Of a DNA stretch of 47,513 bases, positions 35,461 through 40,178 are shown in pieces (position 1 is the first letter of the stretch; every line of letters begins with the position of its first letter). Position numbers and translations under genes: made by a program. The stretch spans positions 1 through 47,513 of the forward strand of contig NZ_JACOFN010000012.1 in NCBI RefSeq assembly GCF_028764065.1, written 5' to 3'. Under the pieces are notes generated by a model. It ran no database searches and was not told the origin of the DNA. It saw only the letters and a program-made list of their open reading frames with translations. This stretch comes from Fructobacillus sp. CRL 2054 (GTDB lineage: Bacteria; Bacillota; Bacilli; Lactobacillales; Lactobacillaceae).

Positions 35461-35487
35461 TTAGCACTCTTTCAAAAAGACTGCTAA
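35461..35487 (+). promoter_or_regulatory. CIRCE operator 1 (HrcA binding site)
   Basis: TTAGCACTC-N9-GACTGCTAA differs from the CIRCE consensus TTAGCACTC-N9-GAGTGCTAA by one base. It lies just upstream of the -35 box. Confidence 0.9.
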
Positions 35488-35527: not shown

Positions 35528-35554
35528 TTAGCAGTTGAGGTAATCGAGTGCTAA
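35528..35554 (+). promoter_or_regulatory. CIRCE operator 2
   Basis: TTAGCAGTT-N9-GAGTGCTAA has an intact right arm and two changes in the left arm. It covers the predicted transcription start and leader, so HrcA bound here would block RNA polymerase directly. Confidence 0.88.
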
Positions 35555-35577
35555 ACAAAGAAAGGTCGGGTGCTTTG

Positions 35578-36612
35578 GTGTTAACGGAAAGACAAAAGCG
35601 GATTCTAGCCGCCATCATTTACCAGTACACACAAACCGCCCACGCCGTTGGGTCGAAGACTTTACACGACGAGTTAAACTTAGATGTTTCGCCGGCGACA
35701 ATTCGTAATGAAATGTCTAGCCTGGAAGCAGCTGATTTGATTAAGAAGTTACATACTTCGGCTGGTCGTGTTCCTTCACTTGAAGGTTACCGTTACTACT
35801 TAGACCATCTAATGGGAAAAGCTGGTGTTTCTGACCAGGAAATCCAAATGGTGGCCAAGCAGATTCGGGGTAACTTCCACGAGTTGGATGAGTTACTAGA
35901 TCAAACCGCGAAGTTATTGGCAAAGGAAACCGGGTTAACAGCCTTGGTGCTAAAACCTAAGCCAATTAACTTGAAAATTTCATCCTTTCAGTTAATTCCG
36001 ATGGAGAACCGGCAAGTGATTGCTGTTCTTGCAACATCGGATGGAAAGGTGACATCGCAGACTTTCCGCTTACCAAAGGAATTACCTTTGGATTCGCTAT
36101 CAGGCATGGTGGCTTACATCAACGCGCAGATGGTTGGACGACCTGTTCACGAAGTTCTCTCACTGATGACTTCCGAACAGTTGCCAGTCTTACTATCCCG
36201 CAAGATTGAAAGTCCCGCTGCTTTCCTTCAGTTGTTTGGCGACGTCTTAGCCCGGTCGGTTTCTGAAACCGTTCACCTGGGCGGTCGCTTCAACCTCTTG
36301 GAAGTGGCTGACGATGCCTACATGGATGTTAAATCAGCTCGTAAGATTCTAGAGCTCTTTGATTCACCTGATGCTGTCAGGCATTTGGCGAAAGCCAAGC
36401 CGGGTCAGGTAAACATCCGATTGGGCGAGGAATTACACACGCCGGTCTTAAACGACTTTGCCATGTTGTCAACGGCCTTCACGGTTGGACAGGATGACAG
36501 TGGTGTGATTGCTCTAGTTGGTCCAATGCGATTACCTTACGCCGAACTGTCGCGTTTGCTTTCAGCATTCGCTTCGGCCTTGGATTCAAAACTCATCGAA
36601 TACGATAGATAA
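35578..36612 (+). CDS. hrcA: Heat-inducible transcription repressor HrcA
   Basis: This 344-residue repressor binds CIRCE and needs the GroE chaperonin for activity. The N-terminal winged helix (LTERQKRILAAIIYQYT, then SPATIRNEMSSLE) is followed by the SAGRVPSLEGYRYYLDHL block and the effector/dimerisation domain. GTG 35578 is chosen because homologues begin M-L-T-x-R-Q; TTG 35575 one codon earlier has slightly better spacing from AAAGG. An in-frame GTG at 35548 would place the start inside CIRCE 2. First gene of the operon. Confidence 0.93.
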   Translation: MLTERQKRILAAIIYQYTQTAHAVGSKTLHDELNLDVSPATIRNEMSSLEAADLIKKLHTSAGRVPSLEGYRYYLDHLMGKAGVSDQEIQMVAKQIRGNFHELDELLDQTAKLLAKETGLTALVLKPKPINLKISSFQLIPMENRQVIAVLATSDGKVTSQTFRLPKELPLDSLSGMVAYINAQMVGRPVHEVLSLMTSEQLPVLLSRKIESPAAFLQLFGDVLARSVSETVHLGGRFNLLEVADDAYMDVKSARKILELFDSPDAVRHLAKAKPGQVNIRLGEELHTPVLNDFAMLSTAFTVGQDDSGVIALVGPMRLPYAELSRLLSAFASALDSKLIEYDR

Positions 36613-36624
36613 AAGGAGGCTCTT

Positions 36625-37203
36625 GTGGCCAAGAAGAATCAAGAAGATAAAGTCGAAGAACAAGAAATCCAAGAGGAAGAAAAGGCCCAGGATTTCGCTG
36701 GTGAAAACCCAGAAGCTAAGCCAGAGGAAAAGGCAGAAGAAAAAGAAGCCGACCCAATGGCTGAGTTGAAGCAGCAATTGTCCGAGAAGGATGACGCACT
36801 CTTACGTGCACAGGCTGAGATTCAAAACATCCAGACTCGTAACGCCCGTGAGATGGCCAACATCCGCAAGTATGACGGCCAAAAGTTGGCCGAAGCCATC
36901 TTGCCAGTTGTCGATAACTTGGAACGCGCTTTGGCTGTGGATGCGGAGGGTGACGAAAAAGTCGCTCAAATCCACAAGGGTGTTCAAATTACTTTGAAGA
37001 CCTTGAAGTCAGCATTGACTGCCAACGGTATTCAAGAAGTTGGTCAAGTTGGCGACGACTTTGACCCACAAACGATGCAGGGTGTCCAAACGGTTCCTGC
37101 TGAAGGTGAGTTGAAGGCAGATCAAGTAGCAGCGGTTCTCCAAAAGGGTTACATGCTACAAGATCGTGTTATCCGCCCTGCAATGGTTGCGGTTGCACAG
37201 TAA
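36625..37203 (+). CDS. grpE: Nucleotide exchange factor GrpE
   Basis: The 192-residue homodimeric exchange factor releases ADP from DnaK. It has a long acidic Glu/Lys-rich N-terminal region (about 1-45), a coiled-coil (about 48-110, with RAQAEIQNIQTRNAREMANI) and a C-terminal beta domain ending in VLQKGYMLQDRVIRPAMVAVA. It starts at GTG with AAAGGAGG 5 bases upstream, 12 bases after hrcA. The length and order fit the family. Confidence 0.95.
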   Translation: MAKKNQEDKVEEQEIQEEEKAQDFAGENPEAKPEEKAEEKEADPMAELKQQLSEKDDALLRAQAEIQNIQTRNAREMANIRKYDGQKLAEAILPVVDNLERALAVDAEGDEKVAQIHKGVQITLKTLKSALTANGIQEVGQVGDDFDPQTMQGVQTVPAEGELKADQVAAVLQKGYMLQDRVIRPAMVAVAQ

Positions 37204-37292: not shown

Positions 37293-39134
37293 ATGTCAAA
37301 GATTATTGGTATTGATTTAGGAACAACGAACTCTGCTGTTGCTGTTTTGGAAGGTGGTAAGCCAAAGATTATCACCAACCCTGACGGTGGACGGACAACA
37401 CCATCTGTTGTCTCATTTAAGAACGGGGAAACCCAAGTTGGTGACGTGGCAAAGCGCCAAGCCATCACAAACCCTGACACGATTTCATCAATCAAGTCAC
37501 ACATGGGTGAAGCTGGATACAAGGTTAAGGTTGACGGCAAGGAATACACACCACAAGAAATCTCAGCCATGATCTTGCAGTACATCAAGGGCTATGCTGA
37601 AGATTACTTGGGTGAAAAAGTCGACCAAGCGGTTATCACAGTTCCTGCTTACTTCAACGATGCACAACGTCAAGCCACTAAGGATGCTGGTAAGATTGCC
37701 GGTTTGAAGGTTGAACGTATCATCAACGAACCAACGGCCGCTGCTTTGGCCTATGGTTTGGACAAATTGGACAAGGATGAAAAGATTCTTGTTTACGATT
37801 TGGGTGGTGGAACATTTGATGTTTCTATCCTTGAATTGGGTGACGGTGTCTTCGAAGTTTTGTCAACAAACGGTGACACTCACCTTGGTGGTGATGACTT
37901 TGACCAAAAGATTATCGACTACTTGGCTGATGAATTCAAGAAGGAAAACGGCATTGATTTGAAGCAAGACAAGTTGGCCTTGCAACGTTTGAAGGATGCT
38001 GCCGAAGCTGCTAAGAAGACTTTGTCATCAGCTTCAGAAGCACAAATCGATTTGCCATTTATCGCTTCTGGTGACCAAGGCCCATTGCACTTGCAAATGT
38101 CATTGTCACGTGCAAAGTTCAACGAATTGACTGCTGACTTGGTTAAGAAGGCTGAACAACCTGTATTGAACGCCTTGAAGGATGCTGGATTGTCATTCTC
38201 TGACATCGATGAAGTTATCCTTAACGGTGGATCAACTCGTATCCCAGCCGTTCAAGAATCAGTTAAGAAGTTGACTGGTAAGGAACCTAACCACTCAATC
38301 AACCCTGATGAAGCCGTTGCTTTGGGTGCCGCTGTTCAAGGTGGAGTTATCACTGGTGATGTGAAGGACGTTGTTCTTTTGGATGTTACGCCATTGTCAC
38401 TTGGTATCGAAACCATGGGTGGTGTCTTCACGAAGTTGATTGACCGTAACACGACGATTCCTACGTCAAAGTCACAGGTCTTCTCAACTGCTGCTGATAA
38501 CCAACCAGCCGTTGATATCCACGTCTTACAAGGTGAGCGTTCAATGGCTGCCGACAACAAGACATTGGGTCGCTTCCAATTGGCAGACATTCCTGCTGCT
38601 CCACGTGGTGTCCCACAAATCGAAGTTACCTTCGATATTGACCGTAACGGTATCGTAAACGTTTCAGCTAAGGACCTTGGTACTCAGAAGGAACAAAAGA
38701 TTACCATTCAAGCTGCCGGTGGATTGTCTGACGAAGAAATCGAAAAGATGATGAACGACGCCAAGGCAAACGAAGAAGCCGACAACAAGAAGAAGGAAGC
38801 AGTTGAAACTCGTAACAACGCGGATCAATTGATTTTCCAGACTGAAAAGACTTTGGAAGAAGTTGGTGACAAGTTGTCTGAAGAAGACACAAAGCCAACC
38901 AAGGATGCTTTGGAAGCCTTGAAGAAGGCCAAGGAAGATGCAGCTGCTGAAGATGCTGATTTGACTGACTTGAAGGAAAAGTCAGACGCCTTGTCAAAGG
39001 TTGCCCAAGAATTGGCTGCAAAGCTTTACCAACAAGCACAAGCTGCTCAAGGTGCTGCTCAAGGTCAAGCAAAGGATGACAACACTGTCGACGGTGACTT
39101 CGAAGAAGTTAACGATGACGACAAGAAGAAGTAA
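37293..39134 (+). CDS. dnaK: Molecular chaperone DnaK (Hsp70)
   Basis: The 613-residue ATP-driven chaperone has an actin-like ATPase domain (about 1-355, with [29 protein letters not shown] and [13 protein letters not shown]), a linker containing [13 protein letters not shown], a substrate-binding beta domain and a helical lid. The tail is Gln/Ala-rich and ends in acidic Asp/Glu residues followed by KKK, not EEVD. ATG 37293 has AAAGGAG 8 bases upstream; a frame extension to 37263 lacks support. A GAAA-tetraloop hairpin follows before dnaJ. Confidence 0.97.
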
Positions 39135-39163
39135 TTTCAACCTGAAATAACTTTTTATATCAA

Positions 39164-39189
39164 AACAGGCTAGGGAAACCTAGCCTGTT
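39164..39189 (+). other. Stable GAAA-tetraloop hairpin between dnaK and dnaJ
   Basis: AACAGGCTAGG-GAAA-CCTAGCCTGTT is a perfect 11-base-pair stem with a GNRA-type loop, followed by GTACAT and not by a T-run. It is therefore unlikely to be an efficient intrinsic terminator. It may stabilise the 3' end of upstream dnaK mRNA or mark processing, giving more DnaK than DnaJ; that is inference. Confidence 0.8.
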
Positions 39190-39220
39190 GTACATACTAT
39201 GAATTAAAGGAGCTGAGCTT

Positions 39221-40129
39221 GTGAATAATACGGAATTTTATGATCGACTTGGTGTTTCAAAGGACGCCAGTCAGGACGAAATCAAGAAGGCCTACCGAAA
39301 GTTATCCAAAAAGTATCACCCCGATTTGAACCATGAACCAGGGGCTGAGGATAAGTATAAGGAAGTCCAGGAAGCCTGGGAAACACTTGGTGACCCTAAG
39401 AAGCGTCAGCAGTACGACCAATTTGGTGCCGCTGGTGCTAACGGCCAAGGCGGATTTGGTGGCTTTGGTGGCGCACAAGGTGGCTTCGGAGGAGACTTCT
39501 CCGACCTTGGCGATATCTTCTCACAGATGTTCGGTGGTGGCTTCCAGCAGGATCCGAACGCCCCTCGTCAAGGACGTGACTTACAGTACCGCATGCAGTT
39601 GACTTTTGAAGAAGCCATCTTCGGTACTGAAAAGCACGTGAAGTACACGCGTTCACAAAGCGACCACAAGCAAACTGAAGTCAAGGTGAAGGTGCCTGCT
39701 GGTGTTGAAACTGGTCAGCAAATGCGTTTGGCTGGTCAAGGTGAAGACGGTGTTAACGGTGGGCCACGTGGTGACCTTTTCGTTGTCTTTACTGTTGGTG
39801 CTTCAACGAACGGCTTCGAGCGTGATGGTGCGGATATCTATGTTCAACAGGACATTGATTTCGTAACTGCCACATTGGGTGCTGAAATTCCTGTGAAGAC
39901 GGTTCACGGTGACGTGAAGTTGAAGATTCCAGCTGGAACTCAAAACGGCCGTCGCTTCCGTTTGGCAGGCAAGGGTGCACCACGCTTGCGCGGTGCCGGA
40001 TTTGGTAACGAGTACGTCATCGTTAACGTTGTCGTACCAACCAAGTTGAATAAGGAGCAGAAGGCTGCCATGGAAGAATTCGCCAAGGCATCTGGAAAAC
40101 CAGCCGGTAAAAAGGGTATTTTTAAGTAA
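39221..40129 (+). CDS. dnaJ: DnaJ-type co-chaperone lacking the zinc-finger domain
   Basis: The 302-residue Hsp40 partner of DnaK has a J domain (1-70, HPD at 33-35), a Gly/Phe-rich linker (about 71-110), then CTD1 and CTD2 with [35 protein letters not shown] and [16 protein letters not shown]. Canonical DnaJ has four CxxCxGxG repeats after the YTR segment. Here a few residues (SQSDHKQ, 145-151) join straight to [10 protein letters not shown], and the protein contains no cysteine at all. Length is about 70-80 residues short of normal for this reason. It is thus CbpA-like in architecture although it sits in the dnaK operon. The start is GTG with AAAGGAGC upstream. Confidence 0.93.
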
Positions 40130-40140
40130 TTAATGTATTA

Positions 40141-40178
40141 AAAAAAGCGTTCGAGTTTAATGGCTCGAACGCTTTTTT
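40141..40178 (+). terminator. Terminator of the hrcA-dnaJ operon
   Basis: AAAAAAGCGTTCGAG and CTCGAACGCTTTTTT pair around TTTAATGG. Confidence 0.93.

Follow-up and report, generated by a model that had tools for sequence, protein, structure and literature searches.

Probable in-place loss of the DnaJ zinc finger in the lineage of Fructobacillus, Leuconostoc, Weissella, Oenococcus and Convivina

INTRODUCTION

A close counterpart of the protein described here is a laboratory construct, Escherichia coli DnaJ deleted for residues 144-195, which is a designed copy of nearly the same change that is natural in our case. Under reducing conditions, this deletion protein reached the same maximal refolding rate and required 2.5 times more protein for half-maximal refolding, and its insulin-reductase activity was lost (PMC4428491). 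The type II DnaJ of Thermus thermophilus (PDB 4J80, "Chaperone protein DnaJ 2") resembles the protein of this study in belonging to a DnaK-DnaJ-GrpE system and in having a J domain, a Gly/Phe (G/F) linker, C-terminal domains, and no finger, and the two match by sequence at 162 bits. It can stand in for E. coli DnaJ in refolding assays and is found in a complex with DafA, an assembly factor (PMC3727329), whereas the next long frame beyond the dnaJ gene studied here lies on the opposite strand. E. coli CbpA and the bacterial class B proteins likewise lack both the finger and cysteine. CbpA, however, occurs in E. coli alongside a class A DnaJ, with cbpM adjacent to its gene, while the present protein, 36% identical to CbpA, is the only DnaJ found in its genome.

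That duplicates of class A proteins have lost the finger convergently is already known (Domanski et al. 2026, PMC12799103). The group of bacteria examined here probably lost its finger from a class A protein as well, but no class A copy was found in it, and its linkers are not longer (medians of 46 versus 51 residues in relatives), in contrast to most class B groups described in the text of that study; the terms Leuconostoc, Lactobacill, Bacill, and Firmicutes never occur in its main text. A second relevant precedent concerns ribosomal protein S14, whose exchange for a paralogous or zinc-free copy under Zur is described as a zinc-starvation response in Bacillus subtilis (PMC5007448) and Lactobacillaceae (PMC3616900). 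In those reports, the exchange is conditional and an S14 paralogue replaces the zinc-type protein, whereas none of the 10 genomes read from the group considered here still has the zinc-type gene in its operon.

We analyzed a 47,513-nt stretch of DNA from Fructobacillus sp. CRL 2054 (contig NZ_JACOFN010000012.1 of assembly GCF_028764065.1), referred to as the window, together with the rest of this draft genome and genomes of related bacteria. The starting point was a prediction, made from the letters of the window alone, that the DnaJ encoded in the dnaK operon had lost its zinc finger.

RESULTS

The dnaK locus and its DnaJ.

The features of the hrcA-grpE-dnaK-dnaJ locus are collected in Table 1. 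Two CIRCE-type sites in the window compare with a mean of 0.02 expected by chance. The segment from 39132 to 39225 folds at -25 kcal/mol (z of -3.96), and the hairpin that it contains falls outside the terminator-like set; it is possibly a processing or attenuation site. In Oenococcus kitaharae, HrcA was not found within the 10.9-kb dnaK-dnaJ locus (L081).

Table 1. Features of the dnaK locus and of the encoded DnaJ (positions in the window)
Feature	Position	Strand	Evidence or description
CIRCE-type operator 1	35461..35487	+	5' of hrcA; TTAGCACTC-N9-GAGTGCTAA, 1 mismatch
CIRCE-type operator 2	35528..35554	+	Overlaps hrcA start; 2 mismatches
hrcA	35548..36612	+	TIGR00331, 270.5 bits (cut-off 197.2)
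grpE	36625..37203	+	PF01025, 146.6 bits
dnaK	37293..39134	+	TIGR02350, 926.5 bits (cut-off 822.55)
Hairpin in dnaK/dnaJ gap	39164..39189	+	11-bp stem, 4-base loop; no T run after it
dnaJ without zinc finger	39221..40129	+	302 aa, 0 Cys, GTG start, open frame
J domain (residues 5-66; HPD 33-35)	39233..39418	+	PF00226, 92.5 bits
G/F linker (residues 70-115; DIF at 98-100)	39428..39565	+	Alignment columns, sequence
C-terminal domains I and II (residues 121-273)	39581..40039	+	PF01556 (DnaJ_C), 163.9 bits, profile 1-152 of 152
Lost-finger site (residues 144-155)	39650..39685	+	12 residues versus 78-80 in finger-bearing relatives
C-terminal helix (residues 278-291)	40052..40093	+	Secondary structure of the model
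Intrinsic terminator 3' of dnaJ	40141..40178	+	17-pair stem and T run

The original prediction that this protein lacks both the zinc finger and cysteine was borne out, as Pfam gave no match to the DnaJ_CXXCXGXG domain in its 302 residues and not one residue is a cysteine. The J domain, the linker, and the C-terminal domains had been called intact, and the J-domain and full-length DnaJ_C matches agree with this. The HPD columns are invariant in the alignment. Residues 98 to 100 are the DIF motif, and the helix at 278 to 291 presumably serves in dimerization, as known from homologues. Between the YT of the YTR segment and VKVPAG there are 12 residues here and 9 to 14 in 27 Leuconostocaceae-type rows, versus 78 to 80 in 28 rows from other Lactobacillaceae and 78 in four rows of a group designated g19, which from its tree position we take to be probably Periweissella. 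The "about seven residues" predicted to stand in place of the finger correspond to SQSDHKQ, inside the 12-residue gap. The sequence features of a class B (type II) protein are all present (J domain with HPD, G/F linker, C-terminal domains I and II, no zinc finger), and the class A hallmark of four CxxCxGxG repeats is absent, although descent from a class A DnaJ is supported by the tree described below.

An AlphaFold model built on a 38-row alignment had a mean pLDDT of 78.7 and a pTM of 0.51. Linker residues 73 to 111 scored below 50, and the blocks covering residues 121 to 280 scored 85 to 96, save at the junction (block 141-150, pLDDT 74), where a short turn connects strands 136-143 and 151-158 at the position of the finger. 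Outside the finger, no substitution fixed in the clade passed the threshold in the alignment columns, and the median length of the G/F linker (46 residues in the clade, 51 in other Lactobacillaceae) led us to reject a lengthened linker of the kind seen in eukaryotic class B proteins. Coadaptation of DnaK to the finger-less DnaJ was also rejected: seven DnaK columns differed over the threshold, six of them common to the single g19 row, which leaves one conservative K-to-R change.

A finger-less DnaJ throughout seven genera.

In the draft genome that holds the window (91.8% complete, 27 contigs), PF00226 was found in one place only, the DnaJ of the dnaK locus. PF00684 was found in only two places, both scoring under the cut-off. 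These lie in frames of 845 and 963 aa, whose CxxCxG motifs resemble those of UvrA by eye; a second, zinc-finger DnaJ was not found in the rest of this genome. The finger-less protein is the only J-domain protein found in the draft and, as had been proposed, the presumed co-chaperone of the dnaK locus.

The search was widened to 301 sampled Lactobacillaceae genomes, 247 of which had PF00684 over the cut-off. All 53 genomes of seven Leuconostocaceae-type genera (here called the clade) were among those without it, whereas it was present in 247 of the 248 others; the one exception (G174) is 76% complete, and a J domain was not found there either. By hand tally, the clade genomes comprise 13 of group g1, 2 of g6, 1 of g7, 14 of g16, 14 of g18, 7 of g29, and 2 of g39. 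Near-identical DnaJ sequences beside named records led us to take g1 as Fructobacillus, g6 as Convivina, g16 as Leuconostoc, g18 as Weissella, and g29 as Oenococcus, and g7 was taken as Leuconostoc fallax because its dnaJ has the same kind of break as that of L093. The finger is kept in all five sampled g19 genomes and, across the class Bacilli, PF00684 exceeded the cut-off in 296 of 299 genomes, with that of strain CRL 2054 among the three misses. Alignment of dnaJ from Weissella, Leuconostoc, and Fructobacillus, the check suggested with the original prediction, showed the same short form; the loss extends across the clade as sampled and is no peculiarity of the strain. It is, as predicted, a clean domain loss and not decay, with little change in the rest of the protein.

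PF00226 was found in one place in 51 of the 53 clade genomes, in two places in one, and in none in one (65% complete). In Leuconostocaceae bacterium ESL0958 (G001, L046), the additional J-domain protein has 183 aa, and its C-terminal half looks hydrophobic by eye. Broken dnaJ frames were seen in an L. fallax draft (L093) and in G007, the latter with broken Hsp33 and ClpX frames as well; these are perhaps assembly errors. Neither the DnaJ tree nor the Hsp33 reading used L. fallax (L093 and G007, the latter taken as the same species), and its ClpX could not be read; the counts below for ClpE, S14, adenylate kinase (Adk), and RpoC include it.

The seven genera group together in a single clade (support 98/92) on an rpoB tree built from 30 genomes, with g19 as the sister of this clade (99/99) and both within the Lactobacillaceae. 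Given this monophyly and the presence of the finger in g19, the simplest account is that the finger was lost in one event in the stem lineage of the clade.

Other zinc sites lost or kept in the clade.

Other zinc proteins were examined in up to 30 genomes, with 7 to 12 of the 53 clade genomes read per site. The zinc roles of the Hsp33, Adk, RpoC, ClpE, ClpX, and L36 sites are those generally ascribed to them. Hsp33 was present in 30 of 30 genomes; its four zinc cysteines were found in none of 10 clade genomes and in all of the g19 (4/4), other Lactobacillaceae (4/4), and outgroup (2/2) genomes, and the Hsp33 frame of the Fructobacillus genome itself (G000:C22:79508-80344, L234) contains no cysteine. 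In ClpE, the N-terminal CxxC-CxxC finger was absent from 7 of 7 clade genomes, where the frame begins past the finger (L254-L260), versus present in 10 of 10 others. The 300 bases 5' of the seven clade genes contained at most one stray CxxC, in one frame. The ClpE count is confined to seven clade genomes because the Fructobacillus genome of this study, G173, and G039 yielded another protein, which we take to be of ClpL type.

None of 10 clade genomes (L374-L383) has a gene for zinc-type S14 in the interval from L5 to S8, where all 10 others carry one. The L5-S8 gap measures 45 to 145 bases in the clade, with no tblastn match better than an E value of 3.3, and 225 to 417 bases in the others. 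Neither a zinc-free S14 copy nor the L31, L32, or L33 of the clade was found within the sequence stretches examined. None of the 12 clade and 4 g19 genomes (L358-L373) has the lid segment of Adk, which is present in 14 of 14 others, with CxxC pairs in 13 of these 14 lids and a Streptococcus lid without them; for G018, G086, G029, and G095, the absence of the lid is taken from the segment comparison.

The loss of zinc sites is incomplete. In RpoC, of RNA polymerase, zinc site 1 is intact in every one of the 11 clade genomes read. Zinc site 2 is changed to N, S, S, and D in 7 of the 11, which are all seven genomes of the Leuconostoc/Fructobacillus/Convivina side (L394-L413); it is kept in 4 of 4 from Weissella and Oenococcus and in 9 of 9 outside the clade. 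Eleven of 12 clade genomes retain the ClpX zinc domain, with a broken frame in the remaining one (G007), and the L36 cysteines are kept in 10 of 12, which are all those where L36 was read.

Each of six characters (DnaJ, Hsp33, ClpE, Adk, S14, and RpoC site 2) requires one change on the rpoB tree, with the states for DnaJ and Adk assigned by group. By parsimony, the Adk lid would have been lost one branch before the others; the DnaJ, Hsp33, ClpE, and S14 sites would have been lost on the same stem branch, and RpoC site 2 later. The assignment to branches is by parsimony only; the losses may instead have been early and separate in each genus.

In a set of 30 genomes, ClpB scored over the cut-off in none of the 12 from the clade, in none of the 4 from g19, and in 9 of the 14 others.

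Zinc, thiols, or the chaperone network.

From these comparisons, loss of the DnaJ finger is best read as one step in a stepwise loss of dispensable zinc-cysteine sites, with zinc economy, or else thiol avoidance, as the presumed driving force; the pattern is compatible with both. Whether the clade as a whole has undergone a permanent, stepwise purge of zinc sites, leaving it with a reduced zinc proteome and with a chaperone network blind to the thiol and zinc signals of its relatives, is in our estimation an evenly balanced question.

The driver could be loss of cysteine and not of zinc, given the general scarcity of cysteine in the clade and g19. Under this alternative, which we consider possible but doubtful, an oxidative niche or a shortage of cysteine depleted thiols generally, and the zinc sites fell because their ligands are cysteines. 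Cysteine makes up 0.28% of sampled frames in the clade (four genomes and the window) and 0.34% in one g19 genome, about half of the value in three other Lactobacillaceae (0.60%; two outgroups, 0.48%), these percentages being rough since different genes were sampled in each genome. RpoB has a mean of 0.33 cysteines in the clade, 1.0 in g19, and 2.9 in other Lactobacillaceae, and one conserved RpoB cysteine is aspartate in 12 of 12 clade rows. A survey of conserved cysteine columns found 25, with 12 kept in the clade; as many of its 36 clusters were antisense frames, only those of DnaJ, Hsp33, ClpX, RpoB, and RpoC were used. Also in favor of this alternative, DnaJ and Hsp33 are both thiol-redox chaperones. 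The low RpoB cysteine content favors thiols. Zinc is favored by the S14 change and by Adk, in which the lid is missing as an entire segment and not only in its cysteines. The absence of zinc-type S14 mirrors the Zur-controlled exchange of S14 (PMC3616900, PMC5007448). Moreover, g19 is already low in cysteine and yet has the DnaJ, Hsp33, ClpE, and S14 sites and RpoC site 2.

It is unlikely that the chaperone network alone was rebuilt, with redox control stripped from DnaJ, Hsp33, and ClpE after the loss of ClpB. Three stress chaperones did lose zinc modules on one branch by parsimony, and ClpB is over the cut-off in none of the clade or g19 genomes read. However, S14, Adk, and RpoC are not chaperones, which weighs strongly against this proposal, and the chaperone ClpX retains its zinc domain. 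Furthermore, g19, four genomes of other Lactobacillaceae (G151, G154, G175, and G037), and the Streptococcus genome G327 have no ClpB over the cut-off and nevertheless have the finger. Loss of ClpB as a cause of finger loss was rejected, the former being older and wider.

Ancestry of the finger-less dnaJ.

The original prediction called the protein "CbpA-like." This description stands for its domain architecture, which is identical to that of CbpA, and probably fails for its ancestry. That a foreign gene of the CbpA type, which never had a finger, took the place of the native dnaJ is highly improbable. Compared with class A DnaJs of relatives, identity is 59 to 66%; with E. coli DnaJ it is 45%, and with E. 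coli CbpA 36%. In the DnaJ tree, which used columns filled in at least 85% of rows, so that the finger was dropped, and from which 20 near-duplicate or distant rows were removed by hand, the clade is monophyletic (100/97) and nested among Lactobacillales DnaJs of class A; E. coli CbpA falls outside them. Joining the clade to two CbpA-like rows (E. coli CbpA and L123) was rejected by the AU test (P = 0.006); joining it to E. coli CbpA alone was not (P = 0.126), with CbpA on a very long end branch (2.99). The NCBIfam models DnaJ_bact (309.5; cut-off, 377.2) and CbpA (182.8) were both below the cut-off, with the former scoring higher. We take the DnaJ of the window to be a former class A DnaJ that became class B at its own locus, and not a CbpA brought in from elsewhere.

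Lateral transfer of dnaJ was considered because a first tree put the clade by the Streptococcaceae, Enterococcus canis, and one g19 row, outside other lactobacilli, and the best solved-structure match by phmmer was 6jzb, a full-length DnaJ of 385 residues. Such a transfer is not claimed: with more outgroups, the clade fell inside the Lactobacillaceae, and its Streptococcaceae neighbors (91/66) look misplaced. When clade and g19 DnaJ were constrained together, the likelihood was 5.5 units above that of the free tree (P = 0.613). The DnaJ of Streptococcaceae (L083-L087, L092, L094, L100-L102, L109, L121, L179, and L180) groups with Leuconostocaceae and not with Enterococcaceae, a possible old transfer that is not significant, as a constraint placing Streptococcaceae and Enterococcaceae together was not rejected (P = 0.224).

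An assembly or annotation artefact, which the 27-contig state of the draft might suggest and which, as a collapse in assembly, the original prediction had named as an outcome that would overturn it, is excluded for practical purposes, because the same short, cysteine-free dnaJ recurs in species sequenced independently, from Fructobacillus, Convivina, Leuconostoc, Weissella, and Oenococcus.

DISCUSSION

We propose, with a probability of roughly 0.7, that the DnaJ of the window is a vertically inherited housekeeping DnaJ that became a type II protein in place, its finger being lost in the course of a stepwise loss of zinc sites. According to this proposal, the ancestral dnaJ of the hrcA-grpE-dnaK-dnaJ locus would have been passed on vertically, and the stem lineage of Leuconostoc, Weissella, Oenococcus, Convivina, and Fructobacillus would have lost the finger hairpin of 64 to 69 residues. 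A class A DnaJ would thereby have become a type II (class B) J protein, and the genomes searched retained no class A copy. The finger would have gone together with the Hsp33 switch, the ClpE finger, and zinc-type S14, after the Adk lid and before RpoC site 2, and the sites lost would be those in proteins able to work without zinc.

The mechanism that we envisage is a conventional one. Substrate would be held by the C-terminal clefts of a dimer made through the C-terminal helix, and the HPD motif and the G/F (DIF) segment would hand it to DnaK and trigger the DnaK ATPase. Weaker substrate hold would be expected, and thiol-reductase activity would be expected to be absent. The original prediction had assigned substrate hold and DnaK activation to the finger; this does not stand as a strict need, as published finger-less DnaJs are reported to refold substrates with DnaK (PMC4428491, PMC3727329). 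By the same analogy, ordinary type II co-chaperoning is the most likely mechanism of the present protein. Counting against this explanation, T. thermophilus DnaJ, which among finger-less DnaJs is the best studied, is said to stimulate the ATPase of its own DnaK only very weakly (PMC3727329).

Literature searches showed no report of the zinc-site losses of this clade among the matches listed (for two of the lists, the best 20 of 92 and the best 20 of 171, with subscription papers mostly outside), and a clade-wide zinc purge is, as far as we have seen, undescribed. The only DnaJ found in these bacteria lost its finger, and the lineage went on to diversify into several genera, which hints that a whole DnaK system can do without the domain. 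With the further loss of sites in Hsp33, ClpE, S14, Adk, and RpoC, the g19 group, Weissella with Oenococcus, and Leuconostoc with Fructobacillus provide an ordered set of natural experiments. In these bacteria, which come from food and plants and lend themselves to growth and assay, one could ask directly which zinc sites a bacterium can spare, in what sequence they go, and whether their loss is driven by zinc supply or by thiol chemistry.
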